From an uncultured Verrucomicrobia subdivision 3 bacterium (GTDB lineage: Bacteria > Verrucomicrobiota > Verrucomicrobiia > Limisphaerales > UBA8199), in NCBI GenBank assembly GCA_903913865.1, contig CAIWMU010000015.1, positions 1 to 49,969 on the forward strand: a DNA stretch of 49,969 bases. Direction: 5' to 3'. Every line of letters begins with the position of its first letter. The first letter of the stretch is position 1. Position numbers and translations under genes: made by a program. Positions 2,136-24,345 of the stretch are shown here, piece after piece. Under the pieces are notes generated by a model. That model was not told the DNA's origin and did not search any database. It worked only from the letters and a program-made list of their open reading frames with translations.

Positions 2136-4163
2136 ATGAACATAACAGAACTAAAAAATAGTCAGGTCGATCTCAACCCGGCTGAATTGGAGATGGCAGT
2201 GCGAAAGGGGGGCATGAGCCGCCGGGAAATGCTTCGCAGGCTCGGTCTCGCAAGCGGCGCCGCCATGATGGCGTCCTACGGACTTAGTGGCACCCGCGCT
2301 TTTGCTGCCGGGGTCGTCGAGGTGTATCCCACCAGCCCGCTCATTTTGAACCCGTTTTCGGATCCGCTCCCCATCCCCGCTCCCCTCCAGCCGTCCGATC
2401 CGAGTACCTGGGCCACCCCCCCCTCCTACGACCAGAGCGATTCCTCCGGCCACTACAAGCATCAGGTCACCCCCAGAACCATCGGACTGCCGGACCCTGT
2501 CTATTACAAGATCGATTTGCAGCTGGGTGAACACAATTTTACGACATCCAAGGTGCAGCCCATCGGGGTTAACGGACAACCGGTGCTTCCTCCGGACGGG
2601 ATTGCAGGCCCGAGGAACCTCCCCGCGAGCACGATTTACGGGTTCAACGGCACCTTCCCGGGGCCGATGATTTACGCAATGTATGGCCAGCCGGCCTGCG
2701 TGCGTTTCGTGAACAAGCTGCATGAGAACCCCATGAACCTGGACCGCAACGATTTCGGCGCTCCGGACTGGGGATTCCTGACCCACCTTCACAACGCCCA
2801 CTCAGCCTGCGAGAGCGATGGAAATCCCGGTTGGAAACCCGAGGGTTACCAGCCGCAGGAGTGGTGCGACAATCTCTATCTCAACTGGCCTGCCGGCGGC
2901 GACAACCGCGAGAAGCAGTCCTTTCTGTGGTTTCATGACCACCGGATGCACCATACTGGCGCAAACGTGTACAAGGGCATGGCTGGGCTGTATCCCATCT
3001 ACGACCGTGCCGACAACGGCAACGAGAGGGATCCCAAGACCTACCGCCTTCCCGGGGTTCCAAACCTTGAAACCGGCCGTGTCGATTACGACATCCCACT
3101 GGCGTTTGGTGATTTCGCCTTCGATGATGGTGTCACAGGCCATGCCGACTTCCACAACGGGACCGGCCAGCCGCATCCTGAATGGTGGGGCAAGACCTTC
3201 TTCCGGCACTACCCCAACCACGGCTTTGTCGGTGACATCTTCGCCGTCAATGGCACCGCCTACCCGGTCCACGAGGTCAAGCGCCGGAAATACCGTTACC
3301 GTTTTCTCTGTGCCTCCATCGCCCGCCAGTTCAAGTTCGTGCTGATGAGTTCCAGCACCGCCCCGGTCACCGCCGCGTCGCTGGGCTACCAGGGGGTTGA
3401 GTTGCAGGGGCAGTATCGCCTCCCGAATGGCCGCCAGTGCATGAAGTTCGTTCAGGTCGCCGCGGACGGTGGGCTCCTCCCCACGCCGCTCGTTCGGAAC
3501 GATTTTGAACTCTGGCCCGCCAAGCGCAAGGAGATGATCATCGACTTCACCAAGTACATGGATGGCACTCCCACCCGCAAGGGCGATGTGGTTTACCTCG
3601 TGAACATCGCCAAGATGACCAACGGACGGATGATGGATGGGTTCGATCCCAACTACCAGATCCCGGTCATGAAGTTTGTCATCGGTGATGATGCTCCCGA
3701 CAACAGCATCATCCCGAGGGCGATGCGCGAGCAGCCCCCGATTCCGAACCTCTCAGGCCTTCCGCGGCGGACCTTCCGTCTGGATCGGGGCGGTGGAGGT
3801 CCGAATGCAAGTGGTGAGGATGAATGGTTCATCAACGGTCTCGGCTACGACCCGACAGCCCCACTCGCCGCCCCGGTTTCGGGCAGCGCCGAGGTGTGGA
3901 CCATCCAAAACGGCGGTGGCGGTTGGACACATCCGATGCACTTCCATTTCGAAGAGCATCGCATCCTCTCGAGGAATGGCGTGCCGACTCCGTCCTCCCA
4001 GAATCCGGATGACAACACCAAGGAGGACGTCATCGCTCTGGGACCGAGTGAGACGGTCGTCATTTACCGCAAGTTCCGGTCCTTCAGGGGGCCGTATGTG
4101 GCGCACTGCCACAACCTCGCCCACGAGGATCATAACATGATGTTCGGGTTCCACGTGGTCTGA
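2136..4163 (+). CDS. Tat-exported multicopper oxidase (CotA/bilirubin-oxidase-like)
   Basis: Copper enzyme coupling oxidation of a substrate (Cu(I), phenolics or bilirubin-like compounds) to reduction of oxygen to water. A twin-arginine signal (MSRREMLRRLGLASGAAMM, about residues 27-45) predicts export of the folded protein. Copper-binding motifs are THLHNAH (about residue 216), WFHDHRMHH (about 265), THPMHFHFEEH (about 598) and the C-terminal HCHNLAHEDHNMM (about 655), whose terminal Met is the usual type-1 axial ligand. 675 aa is longish for the family. The ATG at 2136 has a weak ribosome site; ATG 2214, directly before the Tat motif, follows AAAGGGGGG and may be the real start. It sits upstream of a Cus-type efflux pair, so a role in copper tolerance, as for CueO, is likely. 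Substrate not determinable. Confidence 0.88.
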   Translation: MNITELKNSQVDLNPAELEMAVRKGGMSRREMLRRLGLASGAAMMASYGLSGTRAFAAGVVEVYPTSPLILNPFSDPLPIPAPLQPSDPSTWATPPSYDQSDSSGHYKHQVTPRTIGLPDPVYYKIDLQLGEHNFTTSKVQPIGVNGQPVLPPDGIAGPRNLPASTIYGFNGTFPGPMIYAMYGQPACVRFVNKLHENPMNLDRNDFGAPDWGFLTHLHNAHSACESDGNPGWKPEGYQPQEWCDNLYLNWPAGGDNREKQSFLWFHDHRMHHTGANVYKGMAGLYPIYDRADNGNERDPKTYRLPGVPNLETGRVDYDIPLAFGDFAFDDGVTGHADFHNGTGQPHPEWWGKTFFRHYPNHGFVGDIFAVNGTAYPVHEVKRRKYRYRFLCASIARQFKFVLMSSSTAPVTAASLGYQGVELQGQYRLPNGRQCMKFVQVAADGGLLPTPLVRNDFELWPAKRKEMIIDFTKYMDGTPTRKGDVVYLVNIAKMTNGRMMDGFDPNYQIPVMKFVIGDDAPDNSIIPRAMREQPPIPNLSGLPRRTFRLDRGGGGPNASGEDEWFINGLGYDPTAPLAAPVSGSAEVWTIQNGGGGWTHPMHFHFEEHRILSRNGVPTPSSQNPDDNTKEDVIALGPSETVVIYRKFRSFRGPYVAHCHNLAHEDHNMMFGFHVV

Positions 4164-4313: not shown

Positions 4314-5957
4314 ATGAAAAAGTATGTTTACGCCGCTCTGATTGTTCTTCTGGCCGGGGAGTTGTTCCTGGCGGGGAGTTGGTATGGGCATCGCAAGTCG
4401 GTGGCCGAGGCGCAGTCCGGCACGCGCAGGATCCTGCATTATGTGGATCCCATGAATCCGGGGCACACTTCAAAGGAGCCCGGTTTGGCACCCTGCGGGA
4501 TGAAGATGGAACCGGTTTACGCGGATGGCCAGTCGCAGACGGCATCATCAGGAGCCGCCGGTGATCTGCCCGCGGGCACCGTGAACCTCGACTTCACCAG
4601 GCAGCAGCGGTCGGGGGTTGAAGTGGCGGAGGTCAAAAAGGCCGCCCCCAGCCAGACACTCCGGTGGCTCGGAAAGGTTGCCGCCGATGAAACACGGATT
4701 TACCGCATCCAGGCGCCCGTGGATGGCCGCATTGTGAAGGCGTTGCCGCAGGCACCCGGCAGCCGGGTCAGGACAAACGAGGTTCTGGCCTCCTATTACA
4801 GTCCAGACTTTTTACATTCCGCCCAGGTGCTCGTCTATGGCCTGAATGCCGAGGATAACCTGCTGCGTCAAAAGGGGGGTGTGGCAGCCTCCGCGACCAA
4901 TGCGGGCCCCGTCTCCCAATTGGAGAAGAACACCGGCTACGCGTTCTCAGACCAGTTGGCAAAGTTTGCCGATGCCGACCAGCTTTCGCAGAGCGAACGG
5001 GCAATCAAACTCAACATCGACGCCCTCAGGAACCTCGGAATGGGGGATGTACAGATTTCAGAGCTGATGAAGAGCCGCAGGACACCGCTGGACCGGATTG
5101 ATCTGGTATCCCCGGTGGATGGATTCCTCCTCTCACGCGATGTCTCAACGGGTCAGAATTTCATGAAGGGTGCCGAATTGTTCCGTGTGGCTGACCTCAG
5201 CCGGGTCTGGATCATGGCAAGCGTCTTTGCCAATGATGCCGAATATGTGCAGCCAGGTCAGTCAGTGCGGGTGAAACTCGCCCACCAGCAGAAGGAATTC
5301 ACGGCGGTCATCGCACAGGCGGCACCGCAGTTTGATGCGGCGACCCGCACCCTGCAGATGCGGTTGGAGGCGCAGAATCCCGGCTTCGTGCTCAAGCCGG
5401 ACATGCTGGTCGATTTGGAGGTTTCGGTGTCCGCTCCGGCGGCGTTGACCATCGCAGCCGATGCCATTCTGGATGCCGGGCAGGCCAAAACGGTATTCGT
5501 CGATCGTGGCCAGGGAGTTTTTGAGCCACGCGTTGTTGAAACAGGACGCCGGTGGGGCAGCCAGGTCGAGATTCTGAGCGGTTTGATGGAGGGGGAGCGG
5601 ATCGTCACGTCGGGCAACTTTCTTGTCGATTCTGAGAGCCGCATGAGGGTTGCAGCCCTTGGCGGGACGGGCAAGTCCGCCATCGATCCTGTCTGCGGCA
5701 TGAAGGTGGATGAGTCAAAGGCCCGCCAGGAGCATCGTTGCACCACCTACCAGTCCTCCACATACTACTTTTGCATGGAGGCGTGCATGAAGCGCTTTAC
5801 CCAGGCACCGGAGACGTTCATTGTGGGGTCGGGTCATGCCGAGTCTCCCCATGGTCATTCGGGGAATACCACCGCAACCGGGACTGCAAGCCCGGTTCAG
5901 GGCGCACATGTGTCGTCCATCGCCGTGAGCCATGGGCTCGAAATGTCCCACCACTAG
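4314..5957 (+). CDS. cusB: CusB-like RND periplasmic adaptor with heavy-metal-binding and YHS domains
   Basis: Membrane-fusion subunit linking an inner-membrane RND metal pump to an outer-membrane channel. The N-terminus is an uncleaved anchor or signal (about 1-28, no lipobox Cys). It is followed by a heavy-metal-binding domain at about 41-68 with VDPMNPG and PCGMKMEP, as found in CusB/CzcB adaptors, then the lipoyl-like/barrel region. Unusually a YHS domain follows at about 457-500 (DPVCGMKVDESK and YYFCMEACMKRF), then a His-rich tail (HAESPHGHSG ... MSHH). YHS domains usually occur in CopA-type ATPases or as separate proteins. The gene ends 1 nt before the pump start, implying tight coupling. 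Family confident; Cu(I)/Ag(I) specificity inferred from Met/Cys/His motifs and context. Confidence 0.88.
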   Translation: MKKYVYAALIVLLAGELFLAGSWYGHRKSVAEAQSGTRRILHYVDPMNPGHTSKEPGLAPCGMKMEPVYADGQSQTASSGAAGDLPAGTVNLDFTRQQRSGVEVAEVKKAAPSQTLRWLGKVAADETRIYRIQAPVDGRIVKALPQAPGSRVRTNEVLASYYSPDFLHSAQVLVYGLNAEDNLLRQKGGVAASATNAGPVSQLEKNTGYAFSDQLAKFADADQLSQSERAIKLNIDALRNLGMGDVQISELMKSRRTPLDRIDLVSPVDGFLLSRDVSTGQNFMKGAELFRVADLSRVWIMASVFANDAEYVQPGQSVRVKLAHQQKEFTAVIAQAAPQFDAATRTLQMRLEAQNPGFVLKPDMLVDLEVSVSAPAALTIAADAILDAGQAKTVFVDRGQGVFEPRVVETGRRWGSQVEILSGLMEGERIVTSGNFLVDSESRMRVAALGGTGKSAIDPVCGMKVDESKARQEHRCTTYQSSTYYFCMEACMKRFTQAPETFIVGSGHAESPHGHSGNTTATGTASPVQGAHVSSIAVSHGLEMSHH

Positions 5958-5958
5958 T

Positions 5959-8900
5959 GTGATCAACAGAATAATAGATTGGTCGGTCCGTAACCGGGCC
6001 CTCGTTTTTTCACTCATCGCCGCAGCCTGTCTGATGGGCTGGTGGTCGCTCCGGCACGTTCCGCTGGATGCGATTCCCGATCTGGGGGACACCCAGGTGA
6101 TCGTTTACTCCCGCTGGGATCGCAGTCCTGATATTCTGGAGGAGCAGGTCACCTATCCCATCGTCTCCGCGATGCTGGGGGCGCCAAAGGTGAAGTCGGT
6201 GCGTGGCATTTCCGATTTTGGGTTTTCCTACGTCTATGTGACTTTCGAAGAGGGCACCGACCTTTACTGGGCAAGGGCGCGTGCGCAGGAGTATCTCTCG
6301 GGTGTTTTGCCGCGCCTGCCCCAGGGGGTTGTTTCCGAAATCGGTCCCGATGCAACCGCGTTGGGATGGATCTACCAATACGCACTTGTTGATGAGTCGG
6401 GCAAGCGCAGCCTGGGGGATGTAAGAGCCTATCAGGACTGGTATCTCAAGAGCTATATCAGGGCGGTGCCGGGTGTGGCCGAGGTGGCCTCAGTGGGCGG
6501 GTTTGGAAAGCAATATCAAGTCAATGTTGACCCGAACCGTCTTCGGGCCCACGGGCTTTCGATCAGTCGCGTGGTGGATGCCGTTCGGGGAGGAAACAAG
6601 GAATCGGCAGGACGGGTGATGGAGTTTGGCAGCACCGAATTCATGGTCCGCGGCCGGGGATACCTCACCTCCGTAGCTGACATTGAGAGCATTGTCCTTT
6701 CGAACACCAACAGCACACCCATTCTCGTCCGCGATATTGGTCAGGTGGTGGTGGGGCCGGATATTCGCCGTGGGATTTGCGAACTGGACGGGCAGGGTGA
6801 GGTCGTCTCAGGGATCGTCGTAATGAGGCATGGCCAGAACGCGCTTGAGGTCATCAACCGCGTGAAGGCCCGCATCCGGGAGTTGGAGCCCGGGCTTCCC
6901 GCCGGGATGAAAATCGTTCCAGTTTACGACCGCTCCGAGCTGATCGTTCGCTCTGTGGACACCCTGAAGTCCACCCTCATTGAGGTCATTCTGGTGGTGA
7001 TGCTGGTCATCTTTCTGTTCCTGTGGCACGTCCCGAGCGCGATCATTCCGGCGATCACCATCCCGATCGCTGTTCTGGTGTCGTTCATACCGTTTCGCAT
7101 GCTGGGCCTTTCTGCCAATATCATGTCACTTGGGGGCATTGCTCTTGCCGTCGGGGCGTTGGTGGATGCGGCCATCGTCATGGTGGATCAGGTCCACAAG
7201 AATCTTGAAATCTGGGAGCGGGACGGGTGCAAGGAGTCCCATTCCGAGGTGGTCCTGCAGGCCATCAAGCAGGTGGCGCGTCCCGCGTTTTTCGCACTTC
7301 TGGTGATTGCGGTTTCGTTTCTCCCGATTTTGACCTTGGAAGCCCAGGAGGGCCGTCTCTTCAAGCCGCTGGCCTATACAAAAACATTGGCCATGCTGGT
7401 TGCCGCCATTCTGGTGATCACACTCGACCCTGCGCTCAGAATGACGTTCACCCAGGTGAAACGGTTTGTTTTCCGTCCGGCCTGGCTGTCCCGTTTGATC
7501 AACGCCATGGCGGTCGGACGGATTCGTGCCGAATCCAGCCACCCCATCAACCGGCTGCTGATCCGGGCCTACACTCCGGTGCTCGATTTTGCGCTGCGCC
7601 GCAAATGGCTTGTGATGGGGACCGCCTGTCTTCTTGTCGTCTCCACCGTGCCGGTCTTTTTCAAACTTGGCTCGGAGTTCATGCCCCCTCTGGATGAGGG
7701 CTCCATCCTCTACATGCCCTCCACGATGCCGGGCATCTCCGTCGCGGAAGCGGAGCGGACCCTCCAGGTCACGGATCGTATCCTGCGCCAATTTCCCGAG
7801 GTCGAGAGGATTCTTGGAAAGGCGGGCAGGGCCGACACAGCCACAGATCCCGCACCTCTGTCCATGCTGGAGACCGTGATCATCCTCAAGCCGCAGGCTG
7901 AATGGAGGTCCAAGGAGACCTGGTATTCCGCCTGGGCACCGGGATGGATGAAGGGCTTTTTCCGCCACTTCACACCGGACCACATCACACAGGAGGAGTT
8001 GGTGGGGCAGATGAGCGCGGCTCTGCAGGTTCCGGGGCTGGCCAACGGCTGGACCATGCCGATCAAAGGGCGGCTCGAAATGTTGAGCACCGGCTTGCGA
8101 ACGCCCGTGGGGCTCAAGATCGCCGGTAACGATCTGGCAACCATCGAGAAAATCGGGGCGGACGTCGAATCCGTGCTCTCACGCCTGCCTTCAACACGGA
8201 GCGTCTTTGCGGAGCGGACCGGCAGCGGCTACTTTTTGGACGTGGAGTGGAAGCGGGAGGAATTGGCCCGCTACGGCATCAGCATGGAGGAGGCGCAGGC
8301 CACGGTCGAGAACTCGCTGGGTGGCGACAACGTGACCACCGTCATTGCCGGTCGGGAGAGGTATCCGGTCAATGTGCGATACCAGCGGGACTACCGGTCC
8401 GATCAGGACGCTCTTGAGCGCATGCTCGTTTCGACCGCCGATGGCCAGACTCAGGTGCCTCTTTCATACGTGGCAAATGTCAGGAAAAAGACCGGACCGG
8501 CGATGATTCGCAACGAGGATGGCATGCTCACGGGCTATGTTTACGTCGATATTGCCGGGAGCGACCTGAGTGGATATCTGGCCGAGGCGGGTCGTCTGGT
8601 GCGTGAAGAGGTAAAGCTTCCTGCCGGGTTCGCGCTGTTTTGGAGCGGTCAATATGAAGCGATGGCCCGGGTTCGGGAGCGTTTGCTCTGGGTTGTTCCG
8701 ATCACCCTGTTCCTGATAGCTATTTTGCTCTATCTGAACACACGTTCTTTTGTCAGGACCGGCATTGTGCTCATGGCTGTTCCATTTTCGGCGGTGGGGG
8801 CTGTCTGGTTTCTCTATCTGATGGGCTACCATCTGAGCATCGGAGTCTGGGTGGGCTTGATCGCCCTGCTCGGCGTGGATGCTGAAACCGGCGTGTTCAT

Positions 8901-9297
8901 GCTCACCTATCTGGATCTGGCTTACGAAAAGGCCAAAGCGGATGGGAAGTTGCGGAATCTGGCGGAGCTCCAGGCCGCCATCTCGTATGGAGCTGTGCAG
9001 CGGCTCCGGCCCAAATTCATGACGGTGGCGACCCTGTTCCTCGGGCTGCTTCCCATCATGTGGTCCACGGGCACCGGCTCCGACCTGATGAAACGGATTG
9101 CTGCACCCATGATCGGGGGAATCTTCACATCCTTCCTTCTGGAGTTGGTGGTCTATCCCGGCATCTATCAGATCTGGAAGTGGAACTTCGAACTGAAAGG
9201 CAGGGCTCCACTGGAAGTCCCGCGCGCCGGGGCGTCGCATTTGGAGCCGAAACCCTGGACTTCAGACCGGGATGCTGTTCCGGTCGCAGTTCCTTGA
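5959..9297 (+). CDS. cusA: CusA-like heavy-metal efflux RND pump
   Basis: Proton-driven inner-membrane trimeric transporter expelling monovalent copper or silver from the periplasm or cytoplasm. About 1112 aa with the family's two six-TM halves and two large periplasmic loops. Visible family features are VPLDAIPDLGDTQVIVYSRW near the N-terminus, the TM4 segment VGALVDAAIVMVDQ with its proton-relay Asp, GSEFMPPLDEGSILYMPSTM, and the TM10-11 acidic/basic pair in GVDAETGVFML and RPKFMTVATLF. I chose GTG 5959 (VINRIIDWSVRNR) because CusA-type proteins begin with this helix and it lies 1 nt after the adaptor stop; an ATG at 5932 overlaps the adaptor. No CusC-type channel gene is adjacent. Confidence 0.9.
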   Translation: MINRIIDWSVRNRALVFSLIAAACLMGWWSLRHVPLDAIPDLGDTQVIVYSRWDRSPDILEEQVTYPIVSAMLGAPKVKSVRGISDFGFSYVYVTFEEGTDLYWARARAQEYLSGVLPRLPQGVVSEIGPDATALGWIYQYALVDESGKRSLGDVRAYQDWYLKSYIRAVPGVAEVASVGGFGKQYQVNVDPNRLRAHGLSISRVVDAVRGGNKESAGRVMEFGSTEFMVRGRGYLTSVADIESIVLSNTNSTPILVRDIGQVVVGPDIRRGICELDGQGEVVSGIVVMRHGQNALEVINRVKARIRELEPGLPAGMKIVPVYDRSELIVRSVDTLKSTLIEVILVVMLVIFLFLWHVPSAIIPAITIPIAVLVSFIPFRMLGLSANIMSLGGIALAVGALVDAAIVMVDQVHKNLEIWERDGCKESHSEVVLQAIKQVARPAFFALLVIAVSFLPILTLEAQEGRLFKPLAYTKTLAMLVAAILVITLDPALRMTFTQVKRFVFRPAWLSRLINAMAVGRIRAESSHPINRLLIRAYTPVLDFALRRKWLVMGTACLLVVSTVPVFFKLGSEFMPPLDEGSILYMPSTMPGISVAEAERTLQVTDRILRQFPEVERILGKAGRADTATDPAPLSMLETVIILKPQAEWRSKETWYSAWAPGWMKGFFRHFTPDHITQEELVGQMSAALQVPGLANGWTMPIKGRLEMLSTGLRTPVGLKIAGNDLATIEKIGADVESVLSRLPSTRSVFAERTGSGYFLDVEWKREELARYGISMEEAQATVENSLGGDNVTTVIAGRERYPVNVRYQRDYRSDQDALERMLVSTADGQTQVPLSYVANVRKKTGPAMIRNEDGMLTGYVYVDIAGSDLSGYLAEAGRLVREEVKLPAGFALFWSGQYEAMARVRERLLWVVPITLFLIAILLYLNTRSFVRTGIVLMAVPFSAVGAVWFLYLMGYHLSIGVWVGLIALLGVDAETGVFMLTYLDLAYEKAKADGKLRNLAELQAAISYGAVQRLRPKFMTVATLFLGLLPIMWSTGTGSDLMKRIAAPMIGGIFTSFLLELVVYPGIYQIWKWNFELKGRAPLEVPRAGASHLEPKPWTSDRDAVPVAVP

Positions 9298-9384: not shown

Positions 9385-9469
9385 TGTTCATTTCACCTTT
9401 GTGGCTCCGGCGGCGAAGGGAGTTCCCCCCTTGACCTTCGTTTCCAGGCCTTGGGCGTCAATTATTTTG

Positions 9470-9498: not shown

Positions 9499-9527
9499 GT
9501 CCCCTAAGAAGCATCATAGAACCCAGT

Positions 9528-12500
9528 ATGAATGAAAAACGAGGGCGGCAAATATTTGGACTCGCGTTCGGTTTTGTATCCGCAGGCATCCTGCTGGCGG
9601 GGTTCATGGCCTATTGGAATTACAAGGAGGACTATCACAGGGAGGTTGACCAGACCCTTCTCGCAGTGACCCGGTTGAAGGTGGGGGAGTTGACCCAATA
9701 TCGGAACGAGCGTCTGGGGGATGGCGGGCTTCTGTTCAAAAATGCTGCCTTTAGCACTCTGGTGCGGCGCTTTTTGGATAATGCTTCGGATGCTGACGCC
9801 CGGCAGCAACTTCAGGAGTGGATGGGGAAATTCCAGGCCAATTACCAGTATGACGAGGCCCGGTTGCTCGACGTCAAGGGCAACACCCGGTTGGTGATCC
9901 CTTCCAATGCCGAGCCCCAATGCGCCGCCATCTCCAGGCTTGTCCCCGATATCCTGCGCTCCGGCAAGGTGGGCTTGGAGGATTTTTTTCAGGACAGCAG
10001 CAAGGGTGTTTCCTATCTGGCGCTCACCATTCCCGTCCTTGATGAGGTCGCCGATGGTCAACCTACGGGGGTGTTTGTTCTGCGGATCAATCCCAAATCC
10101 TACATTCACCCGTTCATCCAGAGCTGGCCGACACCCAGCAGGACGGCCGAGACACTGCTGCTGCGCCGCGAGGCAAGCGGGGTGGTGGTCCTCAGCGGGC
10201 TCGGAGCCCGGACCAATGAGACAGCTGTTGAGGACATTCCGGCATCGGAAGGAAAAGCTGAAGTCCGAAGGGGGGGGGTGGAGGCCTGGACCGAAGGGGT
10301 GAATGAGCATGGTCGTTCCGTCATGGCGCATTCCAGTCCTGTCCCGAATTCCCCCTGGATCGTTGTCGCCAGGATGGAAAAGGAGGAAATTGACGTCCCG
10401 TTGGGGGATTGGCGAAGAATGATGATGGGGACGGTGGTGGCGATCCTTCTGGCTACCTGGGCCGGGTTGAGATGGCTGTGGCGGCAGCATAGCCGTCGTT
10501 TTTTTCGCCGGCAGGCTGACACAGCAAAGGCCCTTCGCGCCAGTGAGGACCGGTTTCGCTTGGTGATGGCTGCGATGAATGAGGGAGTCTGGGACTGGGA
10601 TCTCCGGACGGGGACAATGTATCTGAGCCCATCCTATCTGGCCATGCTGGGTTTCGGGCCGGAGGAGTTGCAACCGGATTACGAGGCGTGGAAGCGGTTT
10701 GTGCATGAGGAGGATTTGGAGTATTCACTGCAGGTCCATCAGGATTGCATCGAAAACCGGCGGCAGGCTTTTGAAATCGAGTTCCGGTTGCGAACCTGGT
10801 CCGGAGCTTACATCTGGGTGCTGAGCCGCGGGACTTGCCTGTCGCGGGACGAGCATGGCCGGGCTCAGCGGTTGGTGGGCACGCACATCAACATCACAGA
10901 GCGGAAACAGATGGAGGAAGCGCTGCGGGAGAGCGAGGGGCGATTCCGCGAGTTATTCGAAAACTCGCCCGATGCTGTCTTTGTCGAGGATTCAGAGGGG
11001 AAGGTGCTGGACATCAACCCCGCAGCCTGTCGTTTGCACGGCTTGAGCCGGGGGGAACTCCTCGGTCAAAACGTGATGAATCTTGTTCCTCCGGAGTCGC
11101 GGGAGGAGTTGCGCGCCGGATTTCCCAAGTGGTTTCTGGGGGAATTGACCACCTGTGAAGGGGTGTGCCACCGGTCGGACGGCACTGTTGTGAAGGTGGA
11201 CATCACCGGGACTCCCATTTCGTATCGCAACCAGAAGGCCATTCTCCTGCATGTCAGGGATATCACGGAGCGTAAGCGGGTGGAGGAGGCTCTGCGCGTG
11301 AGCATTGAGGAGTTCCGGTTGGTGCTGGATCAGAGCAATGACGCGATATTCTGGGCGGATGCGGCTACGGGGATCATTGTTCGCTGCAACCACAGGACCG
11401 AAGAGCTGACTGGCCGGAATCGGGACGAACTCGTCGGGATGCACGTTGAGCGCCTTCATCCACCCGGTCCTGACTATCATGAGATATTCTGTCGGATCGG
11501 CTCCGTTCCCTCGACGGAGAATGTTGAGGCTGAAATGCTGGGTAAGGGTGGAAAACTTACCCCCGTGGTGGTCAATTTTTCCGTGGTGACCATCGGGGAG
11601 AGGAAGATCGTGCAAGGGATTGCGCGCGACATCACGGAGCGCAAGAAAGCCGAGGCCGCGCTTGTGTTGCTGGAGGAACAGCGCCGGCTCGCGCTGGCTG
11701 CAGGCAGTCTGGGAACCTGGGACTACAATCTGGAGGCCCGGACCGTCTTTTGGGATCAGCGCGCCCGGGCGATTCTTGGGCTTGCTGAAGAAGATACGGT
11801 CAGATACTGGCGGGCGTTTACATTGATGCATCCGGAGGACCGGACAGGGGTGGTGCAGAAGGTGCGGGAGGCCCTGAATCCGGAGACGGGCGGCTCCTAC
11901 GAGGCTGAATACCGCGTCGTGCTCCCGGATGCCACATTCAAATGGGTCTCCGCCACCGGGCAGGTTTTTTCCCGTGGGGAGGGGAAGGGACGCCGGGCGG
12001 TACGATTCATCGGCACACTGAGCGACATTACCAAACGCAAGGAGGCGGAGGAAGCCCTTCGCATCAGCGAGGAGGAGTTCAGACTGGTCCTTGAGAACAG
12101 CAACGACGCGATTTTTTGGGCTGATGCGGAAACCGGGTTTTTGACCCGCTGCAACCGGAAAGCGGAGGAAATGACCGGTCGATCCCGCGAGGAGTTGATC
12201 GGAATGCACCAGCGGTTCCTGCATCCTCCGGAGGATGCCTCAGTTGAGAAGTTCCGCAGCGCGGTTGCTCTGCCGTCCGTAGAGAACATTGAGGATTTTG
12301 TCGTCGGGCCGCTTGGAAGGCGGACTCCGGTGCTCATCAACACCTCGGTTGTCACGCTGGGACACAGGAGGATCATCCAGGGCATTTTCCACGACATCAC
12401 GAACCGCAAGCAGGCTGAAGAGCAGTTGCGGCAGGCGCACGACGATCTGGAACGGCGGGTTGCGGAACGGACCAGTGAGCTCTCCCGGAGTAATGCAAAT

Positions 12501-13652
12501 CTCGAGCAGGAGATTTCCGTGCGCCAGTGGGTTCAGAGGGAGTTGGAGGCGGCAGAATTGTGCTACCGCACGGTGGCAAATTTTACTCATGACTGGGAAT
12601 ATTGGGAAACGCCGGAGCACACGCTGCGCTATTGCTCCCCCTCCTGTGAACGGATCACCGGCTATTCGGCCGGGGAATTCAATGCAAATCCGGCATTGCT
12701 CGAACAGATCATCCATCCCGATGATGCGGCGCTGTGGTTGAGCCACCGTGAAGATGGCCGGACGCTCCGGGAGTCGCGCATCATTCAATTCCGCATCTGT
12801 AGAAAGGATCAAACGGTTTCCTGGTTGGAACATGTCGGTCAACCGATCTTGGGGGAGGATGGGACCTACCTGGGCATCCGTGGGTCCAACCGGGACATCA
12901 CGGACCGCATTGAGAAGGATTTGCAGAACCAGCGCCTGCGGGATGAGTTGTCGAATGTGGGGCGTGTGACGACTGCAGGGCAGCTGGCAGCATCCCTCGC
13001 ACATGAGCTGCGTCAACCTCTCACCGCCATCCTGTGCAATGTCCGTGCCACGCAGCAGATGCTCCAGTCAGGCAATCTGGACATTGCGGAGGTCCGGGAG
13101 GCGCTTGCAGACATCGGGGCGGATGGGGAGCGGGCCGGGGGGGTCATCAGGAATCTGCAGGCCATGTTCAACAAGAGTGCTGCAGAACACAGGTCCATTT
13201 CGATCAACGCCCTGCTTCAGGAAACGGTGGATTTGTTGCGAAGCGAATTCGTGCTGCAGGGAGTGTTCGTATGCCTTGATTTCGGGGCGGAACTGCCTGG
13301 TGTGCTGGGAAATCATGTTGAACTTCAGCAGGTGATCCTGAATTTGATCTTCAATGCTGTAGAAGCCATGGGGACTATTTCGAATTCCGTGCGACGGATT
13401 CATATCCGCACCCGCCTTGAGAATTTGGCTTTGGTCCACGTCAGCATCCATGATTCCGGCCCCGGGATTCCGGAAGTTCAGCTGAGCAGGATGTTTGAAC
13501 CGTTTGTAACCACAAAACCTTCTGGCATGGGCATGGGGCTGGCCATCTGCCGCACCATCATCGAGGCACACGGTGGACGGCTCTGGGCCGCGAACAGCCC
13601 GGAGGGCGGGGCCATCCTTGAAGTGGTTCTTCAGGGCCAAACCGGTCGTTAG
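9528..13652 (+). CDS. Multi-PAS membrane sensor histidine kinase
   Basis: 1374-aa two-component sensor. TM1 is at about 10-30 and TM2 at about 298-317; the roughly 265-residue periplasmic part between them resembles extracellular CACHE/CHASE-type sensors. Cytoplasmic PAS units follow at about 338, 468, 591, 714 and 846, a coiled coil at about 963-1000, and a sixth PAS at about 1010. The phospho-acceptor box is SLAHELRQPLTAI (His about 1158), the ELxQPL type seen in FixL/DctB-like kinases. ATPase boxes are NLIFNAVEAM, DSGPGIPE and KPSGMGMGLAI. PAS 3 and PAS 5 are near copies. No C-terminal receiver and no adjacent response regulator, so it is an orphan. It lies just after the copper block, but the periplasmic part is not Cys/Met/His-rich, so copper sensing is unproven. 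Confidence 0.88.
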   Translation: MNEKRGRQIFGLAFGFVSAGILLAGFMAYWNYKEDYHREVDQTLLAVTRLKVGELTQYRNERLGDGGLLFKNAAFSTLVRRFLDNASDADARQQLQEWMGKFQANYQYDEARLLDVKGNTRLVIPSNAEPQCAAISRLVPDILRSGKVGLEDFFQDSSKGVSYLALTIPVLDEVADGQPTGVFVLRINPKSYIHPFIQSWPTPSRTAETLLLRREASGVVVLSGLGARTNETAVEDIPASEGKAEVRRGGVEAWTEGVNEHGRSVMAHSSPVPNSPWIVVARMEKEEIDVPLGDWRRMMMGTVVAILLATWAGLRWLWRQHSRRFFRRQADTAKALRASEDRFRLVMAAMNEGVWDWDLRTGTMYLSPSYLAMLGFGPEELQPDYEAWKRFVHEEDLEYSLQVHQDCIENRRQAFEIEFRLRTWSGAYIWVLSRGTCLSRDEHGRAQRLVGTHINITERKQMEEALRESEGRFRELFENSPDAVFVEDSEGKVLDINPAACRLHGLSRGELLGQNVMNLVPPESREELRAGFPKWFLGELTTCEGVCHRSDGTVVKVDITGTPISYRNQKAILLHVRDITERKRVEEALRVSIEEFRLVLDQSNDAIFWADAATGIIVRCNHRTEELTGRNRDELVGMHVERLHPPGPDYHEIFCRIGSVPSTENVEAEMLGKGGKLTPVVVNFSVVTIGERKIVQGIARDITERKKAEAALVLLEEQRRLALAAGSLGTWDYNLEARTVFWDQRARAILGLAEEDTVRYWRAFTLMHPEDRTGVVQKVREALNPETGGSYEAEYRVVLPDATFKWVSATGQVFSRGEGKGRRAVRFIGTLSDITKRKEAEEALRISEEEFRLVLENSNDAIFWADAETGFLTRCNRKAEEMTGRSREELIGMHQRFLHPPEDASVEKFRSAVALPSVENIEDFVVGPLGRRTPVLINTSVVTLGHRRIIQGIFHDITNRKQAEEQLRQAHDDLERRVAERTSELSRSNANLEQEISVRQWVQRELEAAELCYRTVANFTHDWEYWETPEHTLRYCSPSCERITGYSAGEFNANPALLEQIIHPDDAALWLSHREDGRTLRESRIIQFRICRKDQTVSWLEHVGQPILGEDGTYLGIRGSNRDITDRIEKDLQNQRLRDELSNVGRVTTAGQLAASLAHELRQPLTAILCNVRATQQMLQSGNLDIAEVREALADIGADGERAGGVIRNLQAMFNKSAAEHRSISINALLQETVDLLRSEFVLQGVFVCLDFGAELPGVLGNHVELQQVILNLIFNAVEAMGTISNSVRRIHIRTRLENLALVHVSIHDSGPGIPEVQLSRMFEPFVTTKPSGMGMGLAICRTIIEAHGGRLWAANSPEGGAILEVVLQGQTGR

Positions 13653-14152: not shown

Positions 14153-17100
14153 CTACCGGTGGATCTGACCGCGAATTTCACCACCTCCGTTGCCGGTGGT
14201 GTGAATGTTGATGTAGGCCGTCCCGGCCAGGATATCCGCGAGGGCTTCCCGGGTGAGCAGCACTGTTCCCGAGATGGTGCCCGAGGTGCCGGACGGGGTG
14301 GCCAGAGGGACGATCACCCCGGAGGAGTGGGTTGTGTCGGCGGGCCCATGGATATGGGAGGCGGTGGCTGCACTGCCCAGACCGGAGTAGGTCACCACGT
14401 AGGACAACTGGTTTCCGATCATGGTCAGCTTGGCTGTGCCCGTTCCACTGGTTGTCACCGCCGGCACTTCAGCCGCCCCACTCAGGGTCGCAGTCAGTTC
14501 CAGGGGCACGATCTGGCCCCGGATTTCCCCGCCCGCATGGGTGGATGTGTGAATATTCACATAGGTCAATCCATTGGTGACGCCGGCGAACTCGGTCGCG
14601 GTGAGGGTGTGTGTTCCGGAGAGGACGCCCGATGTTCCGGTTGCGCCGTTGATCGGGAACATCACCCCTGCCGAGTTTGTGGTGGCCGCCTGCCCATGGA
14701 CATGGGCCGCAGTGGCCGGGGCGGACAGTCCGGAGAAGGTGATGTGATAGGTCAACAGGCTGCCTTCGATGGTGATCGTTCCGAGGCCGGTTCCCGGTGT
14801 GCTGACTTCGGTCGGTTCGCCATCCCCAGTCAGCCGCACCGTGAACGGCATCACTTGAACGGGTGCCTGATTGACGATGCGGTAGAACGAGCTGGAATCC
14901 TCCCGTGCCACGGTCACACTCCGGTTCGTGGTGGTGAGCAGGTTGGCCCAGTTGGTGTCGGAGAGGCTTGCCTTCTTCTGGAGCAGGAACGGCGGTATGC
15001 CACCGGCCCAGGTGATCGCGGCCCCGAGTCCCTTGTTCACGATGCTGGTGAGAGTCGGCACAGTCGCCGAAATGCTGCCGAACAGGCCGTGATCCTCAAG
15101 ACTGCCGGTTCCGGCGATGCCGGCGGTGAAGTAGAGCGTATGGGTGTCGCCAGCCTGGGCGCCATTGCCGAACTTGATGTCCCAGAGACCCTGGATTGCG
15201 ACAGGGTTGCCTGTGCCATCCCTGAGCATGCCGAGGAACTTCCCGGTGGTCGGGTCAAACGCGTTGATGCGGCCATCCCCGAAGTTGCCCACGAGCAGGG
15301 CCTGGCTGAAGCCGCCGAAGCCTGCCGGCGCGAGTGCAACACCCCAGGGTGAGTTGAGCTGTCCCCTGGAGATGAAGCGACTGATCAACTGCCCGGCAGT
15401 GTCGAACACGTTCACGAAACCGTTGCCGGCGCCGGGAGCGTCATCATGCTTCGCCGCGTCCTGCAGGGCGTATGTGACATAGAGCAATCCTCCCACGTTC
15501 TGAATGTTGAAGGGGGCGAATCCAACCGGGAGCGAGGGGTCTGCGAAGGTTCCGGTCAGTGTCACCTGGTTGTAGGTGGCATCGAAGACATCCACAGTTC
15601 CCGCATTGAAGTTCGCGGCATAGAGGTAGTTGCTGCCGGCACTGTTGCCGAGAGCGAGGCCCTTGTAGATCGCGCCGGAAGCCGACCTGTCGGCCTTGAT
15701 CACGGAGTTGGTCCCCGAGTTCCAGCTGACGATCGTGCCATCCTCGGTGGCGAAGATGAACCGCGCATTCAGGCCCGGGCCGACGGCGAAGTCGGTGGTG
15801 TTGTTGAAGATGACGCCCGTGGGGGCGCCGAGGGAGGCACCGCCGGCGGGTGAGGGGATTGACACCACGAGGGACAGGGGCTGGCCGTTGCCGTTGTTCA
15901 GAGTTGAAACACCGGCATGGTTGTCCGCGATCCAGAACGGGCTGGTCGTGCTAAAGGCCATTCCCCACGGGTTCAGGAGATTGGGATCGGTCTGCTCCGC
16001 TGTGCCCGGGATGTCCGAGATCAGGTTGCGCTCAACATAGGTGAGGCTGGAGGGGACCGATGTGAGCTTGTAAACGATGCCGCCGGTTCCATTGGCCGGG
16101 GTGCTGGTCACCAGTGCGTAGAGTTCGCCCTGGGCATCCTCTCCGAAGCCGTGAACTGTGAGTCCGCCCGGAAGAACAGCGCTGCCGCCGAACTGGAACA
16201 GGGGGAACGCCTTGATCACGCCGGTCTGCAGGTCGGCATAGAAAATCCGGCCATCCGCACGCACAGGGGCGGTTTTAAGGGCGAGATCACCGAAGATATA
16301 TTTGCCGTAAAGCTCGGGAATGGCTGTGCCGCGATACACAAAGCCGCCGGTGATGGAGATGCCTTCATTGTGATCATACTCCAGCGTTCCCTGCGTGCCT
16401 GTGATTGGATCGATGAGACCCGCGGGAAGGCCGACGCTGCGATTTCCCGGGGGGGCTCCGATGGTGCCGGCGTTCCCGCTGGGGCCATTGGTCCTGTTGA
16501 AGAGGTAATCCCCCTCCTTGATTGGCCAGCCATAATTGCCGCCAAGGGTGATGCGGTTGACCTCCTCAATGTTGTTCTGACCGACCTCGCCCTCAATGAG
16601 TTCACCATTAAGGCGATCGAAGGCAAACCGATAGGGATTGCGGAGACCGAGGGCGTAGGTTTCGGGAACCTGACCGGCGCCTTGGAATGGATTGGTCGTG
16701 GGGATGCGATACTGGCCGTTGGCACTGATCGGGTCGGAAATCCCGGGGTTCAGGCCTGGGAGGAGCGGGTCAAAGCGCAGCATTTTGCCGAGAGGTGTGC
16801 TCAGGTTCTGGGAGTTGCCACCCGGTTCAATATGGCTCGCGCCGACGTCGTTGGCATTTCCACCATCACCCAGGCCCAGATACAGGTATCCATCCGGACC
16901 GAATGCGATCGTGCCACCGTTGTGGTTGTTGGCGTTTTTCCCGAAGGAGATGATCTCGCGGCGGGAGGCCGGATCCACGACGTTCTGGTCGGAGCTCGAG
17001 ATCTTCCACTCGTTCACGACGTTTTTGTAACCCTGCGTGGCATTGTTCGGGGCGATATAAGTGGGAGTGGTTCCCGCAGGTATCAGCTCGCTGTTATAGG

Positions 17101-18148
17101 TGTAGAGCGTGCGGAAGCCGGGGCTTGCCGGATTGTTGAAACCGGGATGAAATGCGAGACCGAGGAAGCCGCGTTCATCGTTCGGATTTGTCGGAACGAG
17201 AGGCGGTTGCACGCGGCTCTGGATATCGAGTGCCGAGCCGGGCAGCAGGACGCCGTCCTGGATGATCCGCAGCAATCCGTTCTGCTCCACGACGAAGAGC
17301 CGGCGGGTGTCTCCCGGCGGGCTGATGGCATAGTCAGGCGCGGCCATTCCAGTGGCCACTGCCTGCAAGTGAATGGCGATGTTGCCGTTCGGAATGGGGG
17401 CCAGGAATCTGGACACCGTCACATGCACTTGTGCCGAGATGGAGGTGGCACCGGAGGCATCCGAAGCCACTGCCGTCAGCGTATGGGAGCCAAGGGGGAG
17501 GCGCGTGGAGACACTAAACGGGCTGTTCGTGCGGTTGCCGAGCGATACCAAACCGTCGAAAAACTGCACATTGGTCACAACGCCGTCCGCATCACTGGCG
17601 GCGGCCGCAATCGCGATGGTGTCGGTATTGCCGAACACCGCATTTTCAGCCGGGTTGGTGATGGTGACACTGGGCGGCAGATTGGGGATGGTGACGCTGC
17701 CGACCATTCCGCCGAGGCAGTGGGGAGGGCAGAAATAGGAAAAGACCCCGTTGTTGGTGAACGTGTAGCTGAATTGCTGGCCCGTCACCAGCGTGCCGGA
17801 ACTGAACTTGCCATCGGCGGTGCACCCGGTTCCGCTGGACACGGCGTGGAAGAACGATTCCTGGCAGTTCCAGCGCACGGTGTCGCCAATATTGATCACG
17901 ACATCCTTTGGCGTGAACGCGAAGCCTGAAATTTGCACGTCCACGATGGCGGCGTGGAGGTTCATGGCGCCGCCAATCAAAGCGGTTGCGAGGCTTCGGG
18001 CAAGCCAGGGGGTTCTGGCGACCCGGTTTGTGGGCGCGGCCACAGACCCGGGCAGGGGAATGGTTTCAATTTGCATGGTTCGGGGTTCTTTCACAGTTTT
18101 GTTTTTTTCCGGCGGGTTTTCCGTCCGTTGTGTTTGTTTCGAGGTCAT
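14153..18148 (-). CDS. Secreted cupredoxin / glucose-sorbosone dehydrogenase / TIGR03118 / CHRD fusion protein
   Basis: 1331 aa. After a long N-region and signal-like segment (about 48-66, ending HAA) comes a plastocyanin-like cupredoxin domain (about 67-156) with probable ligands His101, Cys140, His143 and Met148; the C-x2-H-x4-M spacing is that of plastocyanin. An Ig-like domain (about 158-235) follows, then a PQQ-type glucose/sorbosone dehydrogenase propeller (about 240-690, with NNHNGGTIAFGPDGYLYLG and FGEDAQGELYAL). Next is a TIGR03118-type region (about 700-1060, ERNLISDIPGTAEQTDPNL) and two CHRD domains (about 1100-1331, each with AHVHG or SHIHG and GGEIRGQI). The start at 18148 follows AGGAAAGGA. 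Probably a periplasmic or exported oxidoreductase passing electrons from the propeller to its own copper domain; that route is inference. Confidence 0.85.
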   Translation of the reverse strand: MTSKQTQRTENPPEKNKTVKEPRTMQIETIPLPGSVAAPTNRVARTPWLARSLATALIGGAMNLHAAIVDVQISGFAFTPKDVVINIGDTVRWNCQESFFHAVSSGTGCTADGKFSSGTLVTGQQFSYTFTNNGVFSYFCPPHCLGGMVGSVTIPNLPPSVTITNPAENAVFGNTDTIAIAAAASDADGVVTNVQFFDGLVSLGNRTNSPFSVSTRLPLGSHTLTAVASDASGATSISAQVHVTVSRFLAPIPNGNIAIHLQAVATGMAAPDYAISPPGDTRRLFVVEQNGLLRIIQDGVLLPGSALDIQSRVQPPLVPTNPNDERGFLGLAFHPGFNNPASPGFRTLYTYNSELIPAGTTPTYIAPNNATQGYKNVVNEWKISSSDQNVVDPASRREIISFGKNANNHNGGTIAFGPDGYLYLGLGDGGNANDVGASHIEPGGNSQNLSTPLGKMLRFDPLLPGLNPGISDPISANGQYRIPTTNPFQGAGQVPETYALGLRNPYRFAFDRLNGELIEGEVGQNNIEEVNRITLGGNYGWPIKEGDYLFNRTNGPSGNAGTIGAPPGNRSVGLPAGLIDPITGTQGTLEYDHNEGISITGGFVYRGTAIPELYGKYIFGDLALKTAPVRADGRIFYADLQTGVIKAFPLFQFGGSAVLPGGLTVHGFGEDAQGELYALVTSTPANGTGGIVYKLTSVPSSLTYVERNLISDIPGTAEQTDPNLLNPWGMAFSTTSPFWIADNHAGVSTLNNGNGQPLSLVVSIPSPAGGASLGAPTGVIFNNTTDFAVGPGLNARFIFATEDGTIVSWNSGTNSVIKADRSASGAIYKGLALGNSAGSNYLYAANFNAGTVDVFDATYNQVTLTGTFADPSLPVGFAPFNIQNVGGLLYVTYALQDAAKHDDAPGAGNGFVNVFDTAGQLISRFISRGQLNSPWGVALAPAGFGGFSQALLVGNFGDGRINAFDPTTGKFLGMLRDGTGNPVAIQGLWDIKFGNGAQAGDTHTLYFTAGIAGTGSLEDHGLFGSISATVPTLTSIVNKGLGAAITWAGGIPPFLLQKKASLSDTNWANLLTTTNRSVTVAREDSSSFYRIVNQAPVQVMPFTVRLTGDGEPTEVSTPGTGLGTITIEGSLLTYHITFSGLSAPATAAHVHGQAATTNSAGVMFPINGATGTSGVLSGTHTLTATEFAGVTNGLTYVNIHTSTHAGGEIRGQIVPLELTATLSGAAEVPAVTTSGTGTAKLTMIGNQLSYVVTYSGLGSAATASHIHGPADTTHSSGVIVPLATPSGTSGTISGTVLLTREALADILAGTAYINIHTTGNGGGEIRGQIHR

Positions 18149-22719: not shown

Positions 22720-24345
22720 ATGAGCACAAACGATTCAAAATCCGATTCGGGCAATGGCGGGTTGGTGGAGCCGGTGAAGCGGCGCCTCTTTGACACGAAG
22801 GGCTTGAAAGCCTTGGGGCGTTCTGCGCTCTGGATGGGAACCTTCATCGCCCTGTTTTACGCCATCGAAAACTACCGGGGCCATAGTGCGTGGGGGGAAG
22901 CCCGACGAAAGCTTGAAGCTGCGGGGATCCCCTACGAATACCGCTCCATCATTCCGAAGCCGGTGCCGGATGAACAGAACTTCGGTGCCCTGCCCATCGT
23001 GACCAACTGGTTCGCGAAGAAGTCAGGGGAGGAATTCGTAAAACCGCCCCTCGACTATTTTCGGGATGCCACCGGCCGCATCAAAAAGCCCCGCACGCGG
23101 GTGACGGAGGCCCAAAGCCGGACACTCATCGACCTGCCCGAGTGGGCCAGAGCCTTCGAAACCCGGACCAACCTGACCGTGTCGGGTCCCGCCGGGGATG
23201 GGCCTGAGATTTCCCCCACCGCGCAGGATTTGATGACACCCGTGGCGCGGGCTGAGGCCGCGCCTGTTGTGCTTGCCGCGATGGAGGTGGAGAGGGCCCG
23301 GTTCGATGCGCTCCGGGAGGGGTTGCAGAGGCCTTATTGCCGGTACCCGGTGGATTATTCATCCGAGAACGCCTTTGCCATGCTGCTGCCGCATCTTTCG
23401 CGGCTGAAGGACCTCAGCCAACGGTTGCAACTGCACGGCTCGGCAGAGTTGGCTGCGGGAAATCCCGCTGGTGCGCTGGCGGATGTTCGGCTGATGTTTG
23501 GACTGGGTGACACGCTGAAAGGGGACCACATCCTTATCTCGCACCTTGTGCGGATCGCGATTTGGAATCTTGCCCTGCAGGTTGTCTGGGAGGGGTTGCA
23601 GGAGCACCGGTGGAGTCCTCAGCTGTTGGAGGAACTGGGGCAGATGCTGGCGGGGGGCAACTTCGTGGCGGAACTTGAAGTGGCATTGAACGGGGAGCGG
23701 GCCGGGGCGATCAGCGTGCTGGATTACTGCCGCCGCAACCACAACTTTGCGATCCTGAACCAAACAGCGGATTCCGACCAGGAGGGCACGCCGGGACCGA
23801 GCGCTTTTGGAAGACTCGTCCCGAACGGATGGTATCTGATGGAAATGGCAAGTTACTCGAGACGGATGGATGGGTTTCTGGCAGGAATCGATCCGGCAGG
23901 GGGGCGTGTGAATGCGGGTGTCATCAAGGCTGGAGCGCAGGCAATCACTGACGGCTACGGCGGGGGCTTTTGGGGGTTTATCCAACTGTTCATGCGGCAC
24001 GAGCTAGCCGTGCGCGCGCTGATGCCCGCCATGGTGAATACCGGGCGCCTTTCGGCGGCAGGCCAAGCCACCCGGGATGAGGCGCGGATTGCCTGTGCCA
24101 TTGAAAGGCACCGTATAGCCAACGGGAGTATTCCGGAGAGTCTGGATGCCCTGAAGCCGTTTTTCCCGGCCGGAATGCCGGTCGATCCGATCAATGGCGG
24201 CGCGTACCACTTCAAGCCGCAGGGGGACACATACGTTTTGTATTCCGTTGCGTGGGATGAAAAGGATGACGGGGGCAAACCGGCGACGGGACTTACGGAA
24301 AAGATCGAGGGGGACTGGACCTGGGGGTGGATGTTCCGGAGGTGA
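22720..24345 (+). CDS. Large membrane-anchored protein of unknown function in the ECF operon
   Basis: 541 aa starting 6 nt after the candidate anti-sigma stop. A single TM near the N-terminus (about 33-50, GTFIALFYAIENY) leaves a roughly 490-residue soluble domain, probably outside the cytoplasm. It is largely helical with EARRKLEAAGIPYEYR, then PDEQNFGALPIVTNWF, and a C-terminal PVDPINGGAYHFKPQGDTYVLYSV that resembles the ends of similar proteins I have seen in Verrucomicrobia. No catalytic motif recognised. As third gene of an ECF operon it is likely either a sensor partner or a sigma-controlled output protein. Confidence 0.6.
   Translation: MSTNDSKSDSGNGGLVEPVKRRLFDTKGLKALGRSALWMGTFIALFYAIENYRGHSAWGEARRKLEAAGIPYEYRSIIPKPVPDEQNFGALPIVTNWFAKKSGEEFVKPPLDYFRDATGRIKKPRTRVTEAQSRTLIDLPEWARAFETRTNLTVSGPAGDGPEISPTAQDLMTPVARAEAAPVVLAAMEVERARFDALREGLQRPYCRYPVDYSSENAFAMLLPHLSRLKDLSQRLQLHGSAELAAGNPAGALADVRLMFGLGDTLKGDHILISHLVRIAIWNLALQVVWEGLQEHRWSPQLLEELGQMLAGGNFVAELEVALNGERAGAISVLDYCRRNHNFAILNQTADSDQEGTPGPSAFGRLVPNGWYLMEMASYSRRMDGFLAGIDPAGGRVNAGVIKAGAQAITDGYGGGFWGFIQLFMRHELAVRALMPAMVNTGRLSAAGQATRDEARIACAIERHRIANGSIPESLDALKPFFPAGMPVDPINGGAYHFKPQGDTYVLYSVAWDEKDDGGKPATGLTEKIEGDWTWGWMFRR

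Follow-up and report, generated by a model that had tools for sequence, protein, structure and literature searches.

A predicted secreted protein of a Verrucomicrobia bacterium that joins a type-1 copper domain to a glucose/sorbosone dehydrogenase-type propeller

A DNA stretch of 49,969 nucleotides from an uncultured Verrucomicrobia subdivision 3 bacterium (contig CAIWMU010000015.1, hereafter the window) carries one long fusion gene whose product contains, in this order, a cupredoxin, a Big_7 domain, a six-bladed propeller of the glucose/sorbosone dehydrogenase (GSDH) type, a TIGR03118 propeller and two CHRD domains. We tentatively favor, at somewhat short of an even chance, that this is a secreted modular redox protein in which the GSDH propeller is wired to the type-1 copper domain, with TIGR03118 and CHRD as accessories. 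The GSDH propeller would then be an oxidoreductase-type domain, in which half of the active site of soluble glucose dehydrogenase (sGDH) is kept: the general base His, its neighboring Asp, an Arg and an Asn at the quinone oxygens and the calcium-loop Gly. It would pass electrons to the covalently attached copper domain, from which an external carrier, in all likelihood a c-type cytochrome, could take them over. The NHL-like TIGR03118 propeller and the CHRD pair might act as binding or scaffold modules. As its cofactor the propeller may hold pyrroloquinoline quinone (PQQ) in a modified binding mode, comparable to that of AA12 enzymes, or a different molecule. Both the enzymatic activity and the direction of electron flow are what we infer. 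A route for electrons by way of the copper domain is plausible: the ligands are kept, cupredoxin and GSDH are fused in separate branches of the GSDH tree, and genes for c-type cytochromes are linked to cupredoxins of this type.

Searches with the hidden Markov models of Pfam and NCBIfam bear out the gene and module order that a sequence-only reading of the window had given, and the E-values (Table 1) show that the domain assignments are not due to chance. That reading had named all modules except the Big_7 domain between cupredoxin and propeller, which it missed. It had also placed the copper site at His101, Cys140, His143 and Met148 with plastocyanin spacing, and these predicted ligands are indeed present, with the spacing C-x2-H-x4-M. 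The protein has four cysteines (95, 109, 140 and 144), all within the cupredoxin. The domain passes the type-1 copper family PF00127 (40.8 bits versus a cut-off of 21.2). Hence it shares family membership and four ligands at plastocyanin spacing with plastocyanin and amicyanin, but it differs from both in staying below the equivalog cut-offs (plastocyanin sensu stricto, TIGR02656, 39 versus 87.85 bits; amicyanin, 36 versus 110 bits) and in being embedded in a much larger protein. In 11 aligned cupredoxin domains, the window's included, the ligands His, Cys and His were found in all and Met in nine. At 34 further loci of the order the counts were 34 for the first His, 31 for Cys, 32 for the second His and 28 for Met. 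The cupredoxin of the window protein is predicted to be loaded with copper. Export is suggested by the signal-peptide-like start, read by eye.

The GSDH part passes its family model PF07995 with 97.6 bits versus a cut-off of 25. Two AlphaFold models were of moderate quality (mean pLDDT 71 and 74, pTM 0.55 each), the cupredoxin part of the large model being poor, with 10-residue blocks between 41 and 71 in pLDDT. VIA-align matches covered model ranges 1-329 and 191-965, with cupredoxin, Big_7, linker and CHRD barely included. In these comparisons the six-bladed fold is common to sGDH of Acinetobacter (1c9u/1cq1, Z about 29) and to the aldose sugar dehydrogenases YliI of E. coli (2g8s) and of Pyrobaculum (3a9g, Z 34.8), with Z values of 29-35 for the group. 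AA12 enzymes were matched with Z 25.4 (6h7t) and 24.3 (6jt5). At the active site, the window protein has H409 at the position of His144, the neighboring D428, and R503, N504 and G523 at positions which we take to be Arg228, Asn229 and Gly247 of sGDH. It differs from sGDH and the aldose sugar dehydrogenases at Lys377, Arg408 and a position that presumably is Arg406, where it has A623, H666 and T664, respectively, and Trp346 is not kept either.

Conservation was evaluated in 53 rows of the GSDH branch, the window and 52 relatives, aligned with YliI; each row spans at least 60% of the GSDH domain, and duplicate loci were removed. The His144 position holds His in 52 of the 53, and the positions of the Asp, Arg228, Asn229 and the calcium-loop Gly247 are invariant. 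All five half-site residues occur in each of the seven proteins in which a cupredoxin is fused to GSDH. Also in favor of the redox reading, five of these seven have a basic residue at the Arg408 position, Arg in L012 and Lys in L061, L134, L142 and L163, with His in the window protein and L133. An arginine in the first blade, R283, is kept in 49 of the 53 rows. PMC6881789 names His144, Lys377, Arg408 and Trp346 of sGDH and shows that AA12 enzymes bind PQQ without Lys377, through other Arg/His contacts. The window protein could therefore still be a PQQ binder despite having lost the sGDH anchors. At the level of a guess, R283 may substitute as PQQ anchor, like Arg273 in the Coprinopsis pyranose dehydrogenase CcPDH.

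We examined 17 related loci and searched genomes of the family and of a phylum sample for relatives. The modules turned out to be heavily shuffled. Cupredoxin-Big_7-GSDH-TIGR03118 is found in L012, from a metagenome-assembled genome of Phycisphaerae, and cupredoxin-Big_7-GSDH-CHRD in L061/L086. GSDH is missing from a cupredoxin with two Big_7 domains and TIGR03118 (L019, the same locus as L132) and from a cupredoxin-TIGR03118 protein (L065). In genomes G011 and G004, TIGR03118 and cupredoxin-Big_7 are encoded by separate adjoining genes, and the TIGR03118 protein of G004 bears CHRD domains. Many relatives have GSDH without cupredoxin. One is a paralogue in the window's own genome (L089 8763-12947, G000:C131), a Big_7-GSDH-CHRD protein with a subthreshold CBM96 match (24.1 versus 26 bits) and no cupredoxin or TIGR03118 match. 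The complete layout was present only in the window protein among the relatives examined. In the phylum sample, 67 of 387 genomes gave a match at E <= 1e-20, and among the matches listed only the window's spans the cupredoxin; with at most two candidates scored per genome, this sample had little power to find cupredoxin-bearing relatives.

Searching 116 genomes of the order with a cupredoxin-Big_7 profile gave at least 34 further full-length loci in at least 29 genomes (E <= 2.8e-38), a count made outside the window genome, G002 and weaker near-full-profile matches (e.g., G487:C37 and G554:C27), and with two adjoining matches in G503 taken as one. Four of these 34 are fused to GSDH (L133, L134, L142 and L163), two to TIGR03118 (L132 and L150) and two to CHRD with no GSDH match (L136 and L138). 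The cupredoxin-GSDH fusion thus is present in at least seven proteins, namely those of the window, L012, L061 and the four just named, of which L133 is the weakest, having no Met ligand and no Pfam cupredoxin match. On the GSDH tree, the fusion label requires four gains or losses, at least three of them forced by well-supported branches. The window protein lies in a different clade from L012 and L061. A single clade of the three is rejected with p-AU 2.5e-10, an optimistic value, as the grouping was chosen after a first tree. Repeated gain of the fusion is the simpler but not the sole reading of these trees.

A possible electron acceptor is suggested by the gene neighborhoods. In six family genomes, a gene for a PSCyt1 c-type cytochrome (PF07635) lies within 3 kb of four of nine cupredoxin loci, the window included, where 0.1 would be expected (P 1.5e-6), a linkage noticed after the fact. 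We then compared the 34 further cupredoxin loci with 34 Big_7-only control loci, which we chose from 13 of the same 29 genomes. Flanking DNA of at most 6 kb to either side, shorter where a contig ended, brought the total to 349 kb for the cupredoxin loci versus 335 kb for the controls, and PSCyt1 was sought with a small purpose-made profile plus a CxxCH requirement. PSCyt1 was found in the flanks of 15/34 cupredoxin loci versus 1/34 controls (Fisher p 4.4e-5); some of the genomes share a genus, so that not every locus is independent. The ratio was 6/16 versus 1/34 (p 0.003) when only the 13 control genomes were counted, and 14/33 versus 1/34 (p 8e-5) after removal of L132, whose linkage was already known from L019. 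In 14 of the 15 cases the cytochrome gene shares the strand of the cupredoxin gene and lies upstream of it, and in 10 of the 15 the two stop-to-stop frames overlap or are at most 153 bases apart. Pfam confirms PSCyt1 for five of these neighbors, and that of L132 is confirmed via L019. Together, the PSCyt1 and cupredoxin-Big_7 genes seem to form a two-gene redox unit that recurs within the order. The arrangement of a PSCyt1 gene for about 810-930 residues upstream of a gene for a secreted cupredoxin-Big_7 protein was seen, among others, at L137, L139, L141, L145, L147, L152, L153, L158, L160 and L161.

Of the C-terminal modules, the TIGR03118 region passes its family model with 365.5 bits versus a cut-off of 79.95. 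This part resembles the NHL propeller of TRIM2 (Foldseek E 4.5e-9; VIA-align Z 25), and lactonase-type propellers are among its fold matches (7riz, Z 21.5; 4gn7, Z 20.2). The second propeller-like region of the sequence-only reading is predicted to be a propeller, but it is identical with the TIGR03118 region and not an additional one. In view of these lactonase-type matches, a SMP30/gluconolactonase role, i.e., opening of a lactone made by the GSDH part, was considered and set aside; conserved acidic metal ligands were not seen by eye at the blade starts.

The CHRD family PF07452 is matched with 152.5 versus 24.1 bits (E 1e-44) in two stretches, the pair of CHRD domains already seen in the sequence-only reading, and the domains are related to those of chordin (E 7.5e-18). 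According to PMC13382577, chordin CHRD has a fold like that of superoxide dismutase (SOD), and the human chordin CHRD domains bind sulfated glycosaminoglycans. Bacterial CHRD differs from human chordin (PMC13382577) in keeping H-x-H and N-x-H: each His of the former and the His of the latter are conserved in 25 of 27 rows, these being what remained of 32 aligned rows once five short ones were dropped. The motifs were examined in CHRD domains of the window (14159-14845), L010, L011, L060, L062, L063, L064, L086, L089 and L095. By eye, H-x-H falls in register with the copper-binding histidines of SodC, and so it does in a weak local hhalign match (E 0.013, probability 3%); a global run was out of register, and a comparison with E. 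coli SodC alone was not significant (E 0.2). A copper site formed by the CHRD histidines on a SOD-like fold is hence only a suggestion. Residues 184-462 of the Deinococcus radiodurans Cu/Zn SOD chains 9m58 and 9m59 match TIGR03118 with Z 24. A propeller joined to a SOD-fold domain would resemble TIGR03118-CHRD; the window CHRD, in contrast, matches chordin, and its direct link to SOD is not significant by sequence.

Several results weigh against a GSDH propeller wired to copper. The first concern the cofactor. At the Lys377 position, the 52 rows listed hold Ala, Gly, Ser, Val, Asn, Cys, Leu or Thr and never Lys, and Arg is found at the Arg406 position in 5/53 rows and at the Arg408 position in 3/53, with Lys in nine more. 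With these equivalents mostly lost, PQQ therefore cannot be held as in sGDH. PQQ supply points in the same direction. In the window genome, which is 95% complete, the best PqqE match reached 46 versus 381 bits, and PqqC was found neither there nor in the genus-mate G011, with G002 and G009, the two of 13 family genomes with PqqE over the cut-off, as positive controls; the search addressed PqqC and PqqE and did not extend to PqqB and PqqD. Of six fusion-bearing genomes tested for PqqC (G000, G003, G479, G488, G529 and G537; the Phycisphaerae genome of L012 was left out), only G488 had a match. This match (G488:C471:2810-3484) holds one in-frame TGA, perhaps because the gene is defective or through a sequencing error. 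Most fusion-bearing genomes would need external PQQ, as E. coli does (PMC6881789), and uptake is possible. The closest relatives are a further point. L010 (86% identical in GSDH) and L011/L020 (82-83%) are Big_7-GSDH-TIGR03118-CHRD proteins with other N-termini and no detected cupredoxin, and the propeller therefore can do without one. L011 and L020 share an exact end overlap of 141 bases and probably are one gene; the N-terminus of L020 matches CBM96 (32.5 bits versus a cut-off of 26). Moreover, the tree does not separate repeated gain of the fusion from an ancient fusion with many subsequent losses, and its three changes may be one gain plus two losses. The confidence of the better structure model (mean pLDDT 74, pTM 0.55) is too low to place the domains relative to each other. 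Finally, no PSCyt1 match was obtained on the window's contig, nor in the flanks of L133, L134, L142 and L163, of which those of L134 and L142 covered only 742 and 306 bases upstream. GSDH could take the place of the cytochrome partner in the fusions, or the linkage does not bear on the fusions at all.

Also to be counted against an enzyme is that the nearest solved structure to the GSDH part is the hedgehog-interacting protein (HHIP), by sequence (E 1.6e-25) and by fold (VIA-align Z 36.8, 2.8 Å over 339 residues). HHIP is a human protein for which we know of no enzyme activity. A serious rival, which we consider possible if rather unlikely, is that the protein only binds ligands, as HHIP and chordin do: the window protein would be a binding or adhesion protein with an HHIP-like, noncatalytic, ligand- or glycan-binding propeller, the other modules would be further binders, and the cupredoxin would bind copper or be a structural passenger. 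The entry titles of 7pgm and 7pgn give HHIP with heparin and a glycosaminoglycan mimic, and the glycosaminoglycan binding of chordin CHRD, the heavy domain shuffling, the CBM96 match of L020 and the loss of most PQQ carboxylate anchors fit as well. However, although the His is present in HHIP, His-Asp takes the place of R503-N504 there, and at this Arg-Asn site the window branch thus is not HHIP-like. Such half-site invariance would be unexpected for a mere binder, and the copper ligands persist too. The sequence-only reading had held that a structural or adhesive role would be suggested if close homologues had lost the copper ligands and the PQQ- or calcium-binding residues; in the homologues, the copper ligands persist, and of the PQQ contacts only those to one side of the cofactor are retained.

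What had been called a PQQ-type glucose/sorbosone dehydrogenase fold hence stands as a GSDH fold with the catalytic His, Arg and Asn and the calcium-loop Gly, but not as a PQQ-dependent sugar enzyme; the non-repeat PQQ dehydrogenase model TIGR03606 was missed by far (56.8 bits versus a cut-off of 434.55). As the anchors are mostly absent and the PQQ synthesis genes searched, PqqC and PqqE, were not found, we have set aside a strict identity as PQQ glucose dehydrogenase as unproven. Likewise, of the proposed intramolecular transfer from sugar oxidation to copper, the route through the copper domain remains plausible on the grounds given at the outset, but the sugar and PQQ part goes beyond these data.

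Alternatively, the cupredoxin might serve another partner, either as an electron relay for PSCyt1 cytochromes or by belonging with the TIGR03118 propeller, and its fusion to GSDH would merely put it on a common secreted scaffold. The PSCyt1 linkage, absent near GSDH fusions, would be explained in this way, and so would the cupredoxins joined to TIGR03118 without GSDH (L019/L132, L065 and L150) or adjoining TIGR03118 genes (G011 and G004), those joined to CHRD without GSDH (L136 and L138) and the closest GSDH relatives that lack a cupredoxin. We nevertheless regard this as unlikely, given the cupredoxin-GSDH fusion in separate GSDH branches and the half-site kept in seven of seven.

The sequence-only reading had placed the fusion gene one gene away from a copper oxidase and efflux block. 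This is the case, as a multicopper oxidase, a CusB-like protein and an RND transporter are present and only a multi-PAS histidine kinase gene lies between (Table 1). One could thus think of copper handling, with the protein as an extracellular copper trap or as a sensor accessory of this block that binds copper in the cupredoxin and perhaps at the conserved CHRD histidines. A CusB gene with a YHS tail, its product 46% identical over 151 residues to the window's, also lies upstream of the L020 gene, from which a Sel1-repeat gene separates it. Because the oxidase, CusB-like, RND and kinase genes are on the opposite strand, however, the fusion gene forms no operon with them. Moreover, among 97 loci, many of only 3-5 kb, matches to the copper-block proteins were confined to L020 and, at 24-27% identity, L097, with none at 68 further loci (E <= 1e-15), and the L020/L011 relative has no detected cupredoxin. 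We have mostly rejected the efflux neighborhood as a conserved partner, and copper handling as the function is very unlikely. At L097, a cupredoxin-Big_7 gene (9373-10548) is near a PF07485 gene and an outer-membrane efflux/CusB-like/RND block.

The fusion gene itself has an ATG start, no internal stops and a ribosome-binding-like GGAAAGGA stretch 5' of ATG1. Elsewhere in the window are genes for a 1948-residue protein that combines six Laminin_G_3 stretches with a number of immunoglobulin domains (26996-32842) and for a radical SAM protein with DUF3463 (40527-41915), and two open reading frames without Pfam match at E <= 0.001 (22720-24345, 541 residues; 25339-26436, 365 residues).

Table 1. 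Coordinates of the fusion gene, its domains and the neighboring copper-block and kinase genes in the window
Feature	Coordinates	Strand	Basis or remark
Fusion gene, 1331 residues, predicted secreted	14153..18148	-	ATG start, no internal stops
N-terminal leader, residues 1-66, signal-peptide-like stretch at its end	17951..18148	-	Read by eye
Plastocyanin-type cupredoxin, residues 69-154	17687..17944	-	PF00127, E 3e-10
Big_7 bacterial Ig domain, residues 159-226	17471..17674	-	PF17957, E 7e-14
GSDH six-bladed propeller, residues 249-702	16043..17404	-	PF07995 (279-545), E 1e-27
TIGR03118 domain, residues 704-1027, predicted NHL-like six-bladed propeller	15068..16039	-	NCBIfam, E 2e-109
Linker region, residues 1031-1101	14846..15058	-	Found again in relatives; no Pfam family
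CHRD domain 1, residues 1102-1215, H-x-H-G at 1149, N-x-H-T at 1198	14504..14845	-	PF07452, E 8e-22
CHRD domain 2, residues 1217-1330, H-x-H-G at 1265, N-x-H-T at 1314	14159..14500	-	PF07452, E 7e-27
Multicopper oxidase	2136..4163	+	PF07731, PF07732
CusB-like membrane-fusion protein with YHS domain	4314..5957	+	PF16576, PF04945
RND (AcrB/CusA-like) transporter	5932..9297	+	PF00873
Multi-PAS histidine kinase, 1374 residues, between copper block and fusion gene	9528..13652	+	Pfam

For heme, a propeller dehydrogenase joined to an electron-transfer domain already has a precedent in the fungal enzyme CcPDH (PMC6881789). Its layout is AA8-AA12-CBM, in which a PQQ propeller is fused to an electron-transferring cytochrome b. 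The window protein likewise would combine a propeller dehydrogenase with an electron-transfer domain, and AA12 structures are among its fold matches. In contrast to CcPDH, its carrier is a copper protein, and its propeller is nearer to HHIP and the aldose sugar dehydrogenases than to AA12. From sGDH and the aldose sugar dehydrogenases it is also set apart by its fusion to cupredoxin, TIGR03118 and CHRD. A paper on Nitrosocosmicus proposes that GSDH proteins reduce separate cupredoxins. A search of the open-access literature, subscription journals and preprints not included, gave no report of a cupredoxin-GSDH protein that also has TIGR03118 and CHRD.

Taking the favored redox reading further, we may speculate about a family of copper-wired extracellular dehydrogenases in Verrucomicrobia and at least one Planctomycete. 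Here, the propeller, a member of the HHIP-like branch, would have a remodeled cofactor pocket that takes PQQ in a new way or another cofactor, and would discharge into the fused type-1 copper. The H-x-H...N-x-H motifs of CHRD would be further copper centers in the window protein, and related cupredoxin proteins would exchange electrons with PSCyt1 in an extracellular route. Taken as a whole, we hold this picture to be quite unlikely.

To our knowledge, and as an impression only, the extracellular redox chemistry of Verrucomicrobia has been little described. If the propeller is active, the window protein would be a dehydrogenase that carries its own copper wire, which would make it interesting for direct-electron-transfer biocatalysis, and the branch nearest to human HHIP would still hold enzymes. 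An active propeller would also bear on how Verrucomicrobia oxidize extracellular material, and the PSCyt1 linkage of the same cupredoxin type offers a testable electron route in these bacteria.

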